Below the pieces are notes generated by a model that saw only the letters and a program-made list of their open reading frames with translations, had not been told where the DNA came from and did no database searches. Positions 17,449-42,681 of a stretch of DNA of 64,000 bases are shown one piece after another. Each line of letters starts with the position of its first letter. The first letter of the stretch is position 1. The position numbers and the translations under genes were made by a program. Source of the stretch: Rhodosporidiobolus odoratus (Eukaryota > Basidiomycota > Microbotryomycetes > Sporidiobolales > Sporidiobolaceae); assembly GCA_034387635.1 (NCBI GenBank), contig JAOANU010000007.1, positions 496,001-560,000 on the forward strand. Reading direction: 5' to 3'.

Positions 17449-19614
17449 TCAATCCCTCCTCCTCGTCGGCCTCCTAACCCTCTCCCCCCTCTTCCACCTC
17501 TCCCCCGCCAACCTAACCTCTTCCCTCCACCCCAAATTAACCTTGCGAATCCGATTCAGGTGCCGTAGTCCGTACAGAGTCGCGCCCGAGGCGATGAGGA
17601 AGGAGGAGAGGGTGACGAAAGGGAAGGCCCAAGGGGTGGTTTCGAGGTAGGTCGTCAACTGAAAAGACACGACCAGGCGACATTAGCTTGAGGGTGCCGA
17701 TGGTGATTGGGATGGAGAGCACGGGATGAGAGAAACGGCTTACGTTCTACATGGGGGCAAGACGGTCCAAGAAAAAGGCACAAACAGCGTCCGAGCGCCC
17801 AAGGGTCAGCTTCGGGCGACGTTGTACAGGTCTGGGGAGAGTACGCACCATCCCAAACAACGCAGCTAACAGTGCCCCAGCCGTCAAGCCCAACGTCGCG
17901 ATACTAACCTTAAGATCCAACCCGAGCAGAGAGTTCCGATTCGAATCCAAAATGAGCTCAATGATATCTTCCGTGTGTCGCACATTGGCCTACGAGTATG
18001 TCCTCCGTCAGCCAGTAGACGAGCAAGAAGGGAGAGGGAAGTTACAACGCACGGAGAGCGTCTCTACCTCGCTGACAATCTCCTCGCATTGTTTGCTGAA
18101 ACTCTCCAGGAGTAGCTCTATCTCTTCGTGATCCTCCAGCGTCCGGGGTTTGTTCTGCAGCTTTGAAGTGAGGTACATTGAGGCAAGGTCGGCGTCTGCT
18201 CGGCATAGGCGGCGGAAGTCAGTCATATAGCGAGTTAACGTCGCGTAGGTAGGCAGGAAGGAAGGAGGCGGGTTCTGGACTTACCATTGGCGAGCAGCTC
18301 TTCCAGACATTCTTGCACCAGTGTCGCTCTCTTTTGAAAGACTGTCAATCTCCTCGAGTAGCTAAGCAACAATCGCAGGTTTTCGCGGTCTGCGAGAACG
18401 AACACAAGTTGTCAGGAGAAGTTGGACGACAGAGAGGCGAAGGACCAAGCAGCACAGACGTACCAATGTGTTCCTCCATGTGACCGAGCAATTCAACGAC
18501 GTGACTTCGGATGTTTCCTAGATCTGTCTCGAGCGCCGTAAGGACGCTGACCAAGCAGGCCTCAAGGGCGCGAAACTCGTATGGTAAGCCGTGCGCCGCT
18601 TTTGCTGGTGTCTTGAGGGCGTGCTGGTAGCAGAACGCACGCGTGAGCTTGGTAGAATCGAAGAGGGGCTGGAGGAAAACCACACTTACCTCAAGCGACC
18701 AAACAAACACTCCCTTCAACCAACTATCCTCACTCCCAACCGAATCAAAGATGGTCACTTCCCTCGCGGTGATCGCCACTCTGAGGTGCAGCATGGTGAG
18801 CAAGATACAGCTTTTCCGGCTGAGAATGGTAGGGACGACAGTAGGTACGCCCGAGTCGAGCTTGCGGAGGTCGCGAGGGGGGATCCCGAATTTGGAGCAG
18901 AGGGCGGGCTTGGAAAGGGCAACGGAGGTGGTCGTGACGGTACCTGTAAGAGAAAGCGGTCAGACTAGAAGCCACGCATGGAAAAGAGCAATGGTGAAAA
19001 GCATGGGCTTCTTCGAGGTGGGATGAAAGCGAGCGCAGAGTGTGTGCGAGACCGGATGAGCGGAATGCGAAGGGTATGAAGTGCAGCCTACCTTTAAAGT
19101 CCAAAGTCGTGGCCCTCACCTCCATTGTTCCTCCCGTCCCTCCTCCCGTGCCATATCCACTCCCCCTAGTATTCCTCAACATACGCTCAAGCGCTTTGAC
19201 CGTCTCTTGATTCCTCTCTTTGCTCAATCGTTCTTCGTCGAGGTAGGAAGAACTGGCAGTGGGAAGAGGTGGGCGTTTTTTCCGTCGTGGGAACCAGGAA
19301 GTGAGGAGGCTTCGTGGAGCCGGTGCGGGGGTGGGTGAGTTCTCCGCGATAGCGAGACGGGAGAGAGGGTTCGAATGAGGAGATGAGGATGCTGAAGTGG
19401 AAGAGGGAGATGAAGGTGAGGGGAGTTGCGAGGTTGAGCTGTTGAGGGCGGGTGAACCGTAGAGGAACCTAGAGAGGGGTCCATCTCCATTTTCTGATCT
19501 CACTGCGGTTGACCCTAATGCTCTTTGTTGTGGTCGAGGTGTGCAGAGTTGCCATGATGAGGGAGTTGGGCTGAGCAACGGGACCAGTCGATCTCGCGCT
19601 GTGCGGGCGAACAT
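17449..19614 (-). CDS. MRS2: Mitochondrial Mg2+ channel MRS2
   Basis: Exons 19614-19092, 18943-18690, 18623-18464, 18389-18285, 18195-18053, 17989-17849, 17746-17744, 17658-17449: 1539 bases, 512 aa. The start MFARTARDRLVPLL is a typical basic, Ser/Leu-rich mitochondrial presequence. Conserved parts are LPYEFRALEACL, long helices with SFSKQCEEIVSEVE and EDIIELILDSNRN, a first membrane helix ending in FGMN, and a second (WAFPFVTLSSFLIASGATLY). GMN is the selectivity signature of CorA/Mrs2 channels that carry Mg2+ across the inner membrane. The Asn (residue 443) comes from a separate 3-base exon, flanked by tag and gtaagc; joining the neighbours directly would delete it. The intron at 18689-18624 is a multiple of three and could be retained. 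It converges with MPDU1, 204 bases apart. Confidence 0.92.
17744..17746 (-). other. MRS2: 3-base microexon (AAC) of MRS2
   Basis: On the minus strand the bases read ccccatgtag, AAC, gtaagccg. An intron with a gtgcgt donor ends before it and another with a ttttcag acceptor (at 17659-17660) begins after it. Both junctions are in phase 0. It supplies the Asn of the GMN motif, which no other nearby sequence can provide. Confidence 0.8.
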
Positions 19615-42464: not shown

Positions 42465-42486
42465 GGTTAGGTTAGGTTAGGTTAGG
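42465..42486 (+). repeat. Interstitial (GGTTA)4 telomere-like repeat
   Basis: Four perfect GGTTA units followed by GG. It resembles the TTAGG/TTAGGG telomere class but is 5 bases per unit and short. It lies just before the truncated transporter. Confidence 0.8.
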
Positions 42487-42681
42487 AGTGGGCGGATCTG
42501 GGTTTTGCCTATTCTCTACAGGTTGTCAAGTCTCTCCGCTTCTAGTATGACTTGGAGTTGGATGTTTACTGACCAGTAGTACCACTCACAGTCCTGTGGG
42601 TGCGTTGGACCCGTCGCCTCTGGCCCCTGGGTGACCTTCTCAAAACCGCCTGACGCCCTTCTGTCGCCCGTCTCCCTGCAG

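Follow-up and report, generated by a model that had tools for sequence, protein, structure and literature searches.

In Fusarium CYP621A, a single-nucleotide exon lies within a conserved motif and is missed by most gene models, according to the accessible part of that report (PMC12940212). For the 1-nt exon of Arabidopsis APC11, Guo and Liu favour, in the text available, intron definition with stepwise removal of the introns (PMC4674806). A 3-nt exon that keeps the frame and is conserved among related species has been described in Drosophila homothorax, where it is alternative and, in the excerpt at hand, derives from a 48-bp exon sharing its acceptor (PMC7392893). Tiny exons are also found in intron-rich basidiomycetes, the shortest named in the available excerpts being 5, 6 and 18 bp in three bglA genes of basidiomycetous yeast (PMC9142197) and 6 bp in P450 genes of Phanerochaete (PMC1184071), while plant microexons, surveyed by RNA-seq at scale, are conserved and mostly unannotated as far as the accessible text goes (PMC8831610). 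For the magnesium channel CtMrs2, the available text states that the Asn of the filter motif GMN (N443) contributes to magnesium binding, that the N443A exchange prevents the Mrs2-dependent nickel toxicity in E. coli, and that the triple Ala mutant of GMN reduces growth (PMC11919701).

Here we describe three bases, AAC, on the minus strand of the window (the whole 64-kb stretch of DNA analysed, from a genome of 24.8 Mb). They are most likely a constitutive exon of an MRS2 gene that supplies the Asn of GMN, and are likely joined to their neighbours by the successive removal of two separate introns of ordinary size; we put the probability of this reading at roughly 0.9. Like the CYP621A exon, AAC would be an ultra-short fungal exon in a conserved motif, with a joint intron that exceeds the median. 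It differs in gene and phylum, in its size (3 nt instead of 1 nt) and in its phase 0, so that its omission goes unnoticed, whereas omission of the CYP621A exon breaks the frame; moreover, in the accessible text the latter is shown by transcript reads, while the MRS2 exon is known here from DNA (PMC12940212). With APC11 it would have in common that the exon is constitutive and too short to be recognised by exon definition, although the APC11 exon belongs to a plant, has 1 nt and, in the text available, was tested by expression constructs. The 3-nt length and the preserved frame recur in homothorax, unlike the alternative use reported there. The basidiomycete exons named above are all longer than 3 nt and belong to other genes, and conservation together with missing annotation would be a likeness to the plant microexons. 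If the reading holds, the MRS2 exon would be among the shortest known. A preliminary description had counted it among the shortest possible exons, which is fair, although 1-nt exons are in print for APC11 and CYP621A and 3-nt exons are known in animals. In the literature searched, with most subscription journals outside it, nothing was found that treats MRS2 and a microexon together. The accessible parts of the papers retrieved for Rhodotorula microexons (PMC9142197, PMC1184071) are not on MRS2, and none of the papers on 3-bp or 3-nt exons concerns fungal MRS2, judged by title or the start of the abstract.

The MRS2 gene occupies 17449..19614 on the minus strand. Its eight exons, at 19614-19092, 18943-18690, 18623-18464, 18389-18285, 18195-18053, 17989-17849, 17746-17744 (the proposed AAC exon) and 17658-17449, read open throughout from ATG at 19614, the likely start, to TGA at 17449 and encode 512 amino acids. 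An exon set beginning at ATG 19490 was out of frame, and the frame from ATG 19614 was adopted. The introns measure, in order, 148, 66, 74, 89, 63, 102 and 85 nt. Matched exon by exon, the product scores 118.4, 49.9 and 27.9 bits with the MRS2-like family PF22099, over the curated cut-off; a search of the genome with the CorA profile PF01544 gave no match. The protein is 99% identical to a record from Rhodosporidiobolus odoratus (P0001), a yeast that is placed in the class Microbotryomycetes. It can be aligned through GMN with the solved Mrs2 structures 8q8p and 8q8q, and homology with these suggests a pentameric magnesium channel of the inner mitochondrial membrane.

Exon 6 encodes the first transmembrane segment through the Gly-Met of the filter and ends in GGGATG, directly followed by the donor gtgcgt. 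The last exon starts with the Leu that follows GMN, at 17658 (TTGACGACC) behind the acceptor gtcttttcag, and continues to the stop. Between the two, AAC at 17746-17744 has ccatgtag on its 5' side and gtaagc on its 3' side, and is in phase 0 on either flank; it has its own 3' and 5' splice sites around no more than 30 nt, as defines a microexon. With AAC included the protein reads ALFGMNLTTYLE, i.e. FGMNLTT, and only then does GMN follow the first transmembrane segment. With AAC skipped it reads ALFGMLTTYLE (FGMLTT) in an unbroken frame. The DNA therefore agrees with the preliminary description on the junctions GGGATG/gtgcgt, tag/AAC/gtaagc and ttttcag/TTG and on the intron lengths of 102 and 85 nt, and translation confirms that a direct join would give GM-LTT, with the Asn lost and the frame kept. 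An exact search of the 24.8 Mb genome with 15 bases of the spliced junction gave no match, as expected since the site is split by introns.

Both introns around AAC are complete, with an appropriate length, donor, branch-type motif and acceptor. Intron 6 (17848-17747, 102 nt, GTGCGT...TAG) contains CTGAC 59 nt before its AG, which is unusually distant, and intron 7 (17743-17659, 85 nt, GTAAGC...CAG) contains CTAAT 24 nt before its AG. For comparison we used 132 other introns of the window, modelled by a home-made gene finder that served for intron statistics only, so that these introns count as predictions. As their median length is 87.5 nt, 102 and 85 nt are ordinary, and 4 of the 132 have 190 nt or more, the distance from exon 6 to the last exon. 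GTGCGT is the commonest donor among them (21/132) and GTAAGC occurs in five; GTAG and TCAG form the intron end in 10 and 17 cases, respectively. A CTRAY-type motif 8-60 nt from the intron end was found in 80 and was lacking in 52, and 79 of the 80 have it within 48 nt of the end. With its CTGAC at 59 nt from the AG, the acceptor before AAC may be weak, and the stretch from this motif to the splice site is free of AG, as expected for a distant branch point. Although it has no minimum exon length, the gene finder itself chose one 190-nt intron and not the AAC exon; it also got exons 1 to 3 of MRS2 wrong and fused an upstream LYR-type region to MRS2. Tiny exons of its own making elsewhere (e.g. 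42481-42487) were taken for artefacts.

To enumerate the splice forms possible in the 190 nt that separate exon 6 from the last exon, all GT and AG dinucleotides were combined with introns of at least 45 nt. Nine of the 65 resulting forms enter the last exon in frame and without a stop, and a single one, with the 3-nt AAC exon, gives GMNL in frame. One more form contains GMN followed by an insert (GMNVSRFSHPL), from a 24-nt exon off the same acceptor, and as the sole other in-frame form with GMN it is the candidate for an Asn supplied by different splicing, which the preliminary description had named as an outcome that would speak against the 3-nt exon. We give it next to no weight: its seven additional residues (VSRFSHP) would lie in the post-filter loop, where none of the 92 records whose spacing is of the GMNL type has them, and its donor GTGCTC has no G at position 5, the base found there in ~93% of the modelled donors.

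The composite site is also rare by chance. In dinucleotide shuffles with the outer splice sites kept, the pattern YAG/AAY/GTRNG with at least 50 nt in both halves arose in 10 of 50,000, and in 1 of 50,000 when CTRAY 8-60 nt from the end was required in both halves. No 3-nt composite of this kind, with any codon, was found in the 132 other modelled introns of the window. These figures weigh against a single 190-nt intron in which AAC is a chance match and which would leave the protein, here and in other species whose records lack the Asn, truly without this residue. The models of 16 relatives, the nearest (P0001) included, are nevertheless built in that way, and introns of such a length do occur among the modelled ones, as noted above.

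With the 512-aa protein as a query, 419 matches were obtained, and the best 120 were compared at the Asn. The nearest 28 of these come from red yeasts and related fungi; the six genera that were checked all belong to the Microbotryomycetes, as presumably do the remaining ones. Among these 28 records the filter Asn is absent in 17, namely P0001-P0007, P0010, P0011, P0013, P0014, P0016-P0018, P0021, P0026 and P0028, and GMN is present in 11. The absence is an exact one-residue gap (GM to L) in 16 of the 28, while P0018 has 29 other residues, in which back-translation admits no AG-AAY-GT. All of the other 92 records listed (92/92) contain GMN. On a protein tree with 31 rows, for which the Asn was left out of the alignment, the distribution of the Asn requires seven changes. 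A number as low came up in 9 of 500 shuffles, and the Asn-less records thus lie closer together than most shuffles would place them. It is hard to believe that an invariant residue of the filter was truly lost and regained so often, and since a single 190-nt intron would require exactly this, we regard that explanation as very unlikely. A tiny exon that is overlooked by gene models, and is fused to its neighbour where one of the introns is absent, would explain both the scatter and the clustering. Automatic gene models would splice exon 6 directly to the last exon, and the Asn would drop out. The 17 Asn-less records among the nearest 28 listed are probably faulty at the filter; given a real 3-nt exon, this would be why their ion filter seems broken, a point of consequence for annotation, for structure prediction and for gene synthesis from databases.

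Further support comes from a cDNA-like sequence. P0009 (542 aa) reads GMNLLNRIEE and most likely derives from RNA, because its longest contig of 1778 nt leaves no room for introns. The genomic ORF P0127, identical to P0009 in 81 of 82 residues from the Leu onward, reads PSTQ/LLNRIEE, with the end of an intron immediately in front of the Leu. The Asn is absent from the models of R. dairenensis and R. pacifica, the nearest named relatives of P0009, which read GMLLNRIEE; that P0009 has the Asn and they do not is a further point against a single intron. A similar case is P0128, with 85 residues identical to the end of the Asn-less R. sphaerocarpa record and a Gln before the Leu.

A search with the last exon gave eight matches (P0123-P0130), of which only P0123 and P0124 extend back to the Met codon. 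P0123, a read-through ORF from a Rhodosporidiobolus relative, reads LFGM/VR...Q/LTSHLE over 171 nt. Its back-translation offers a single place for YAG/AAY/GTRNG, which would leave introns of 70 and 98 nt, and 32 of 5000 residue shuffles admit the pattern; the looser AG-AAY-GT fits in the same place and in one other, 4 nt on. As P0123 is known from its translation alone, its AAC is compatible with the record and not read from it. In P0121 and P0122 a donor-compatible pair (Val-Arg or Val-Ser) directly follows the Met. P0124, nearest to Sporobolomyces phaffii, reads LFGMN/VSSSS...Q/LTSHLEE, with the Asn contiguous with exon 6 and the second intron only; hence, the 3-nt exon is not universal. P0125-P0130 begin after the Met codon and are therefore uninformative on the exon, while P0126-P0129 have a Gln directly before the Leu, the residue that a CAG acceptor would leave, and in P0129 the loose AG-AAY-GT fits and the strict form does not. 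The preliminary description's central claim of a 3-base exon supplying the Asn of GMN is well supported, and the comparison with other red yeasts that it called for points in the same direction, within what can be learned from protein records and read-through ORFs. The records are best read as a 3-nt exon that would be found across much of the class Microbotryomycetes and has been overlooked by gene finders. In the simplest history, the state with two introns would be old in the class and the first intron would be absent in some lineages.

The preliminary description had gone on to suggest that skipping of the exon could act as a switch, i.e. that AAC is a real exon and a regulated fraction of transcripts omits it and yields a filter without Asn. 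The frame would survive the skipping, the acceptor before AAC lies far from its branch-type motif, the donor of exon 6 could pair with the acceptor of the last exon, and the accessible text on Trichoderma Xlr2 provides a precedent for a microexon switch in fungi (PMC11121469). The sole transcript-like red-yeast sequence reached, P0009, has the Asn, however, and in a search with the Asn-less filter region (27 matches) the Asn-less ones were either models derived from genomes or read-through ORFs, with nothing transcript-like among them. The effects of the CtMrs2 Asn mutants also lead us to expect that an Asn-less MRS2 channel would not work. We found no evidence in favour of a regulated switch and consider it improbable on these grounds. 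Slightly more doubtful still is its extension to an ancient, class-wide 3-nt exon that serves as a one-codon filter switch, in which the unusual acceptor would tune the share of Asn-less subunits, and these would enter the pentamers and shut mitochondrial magnesium uptake.

What is seen directly for the proposed constitutive AAC exon is the DNA sequence with its splice sites and phases, one branch-type motif per intron and a GMN that is restored exactly; its presence in the MRS2 mRNA is inferred. Two splice sites 3 nt apart can hardly be occupied simultaneously, which suggests that each intron is recognised across itself (intron definition). Once either intron is out, the other would be flanked by normal exons. 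Intron 7 may leave first, since its motif is better placed (24 nt) and it ends in ttttcag; AAC would then join a normal exon and skipping would no longer be possible. Removal around AAC may thus be stepwise and similar to recursive splicing. A ratchet point of recursive splicing has its acceptor and donor directly juxtaposed, and the mRNA keeps no exon. At AAC three bases remain between AG and GT, which is why we rejected strictly recursive splicing. If the reading is correct, AAC would, unlike frame-restoring 1-nt exons, be silent to frame checks, its omission costing one invariant residue only. MRS2, with its Asn codon between two introns in some species and beside one in others, would then seem a natural series for testing the use of splice sites 3 nt apart and the order of intron removal.

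A second MRS2-type gene of the same genome (L004 1501-2460), which we take to be possibly an Mfm1/Lpe10-like partner, has an uninterrupted GMN behind a 75-nt intron that lies within the Gly codon, so that the filter is carried there in the ordinary way. The position of this intron differs from those in MRS2, yet it is again inside the filter motif.

The records of R. odoratus (P0001) and R. microsporus (P0005) show an LYR-family domain (PF05347) ahead of MRS2. The window has an LYR-like exon that begins at ~20694 on the minus strand (region 20694-19092), before the ATG at 19614 where MRS2 probably starts, and the LYR-MRS2 fusion in both records is therefore probably an annotation error. Directly after the filter, the 29 extra residues of P0018 and the 22 of P0023 (Leucosporidium) look like a retained intron; those of P0023 start with Val-Ser, as a GTNAGY donor would, and resemble P0124 after the Asn.
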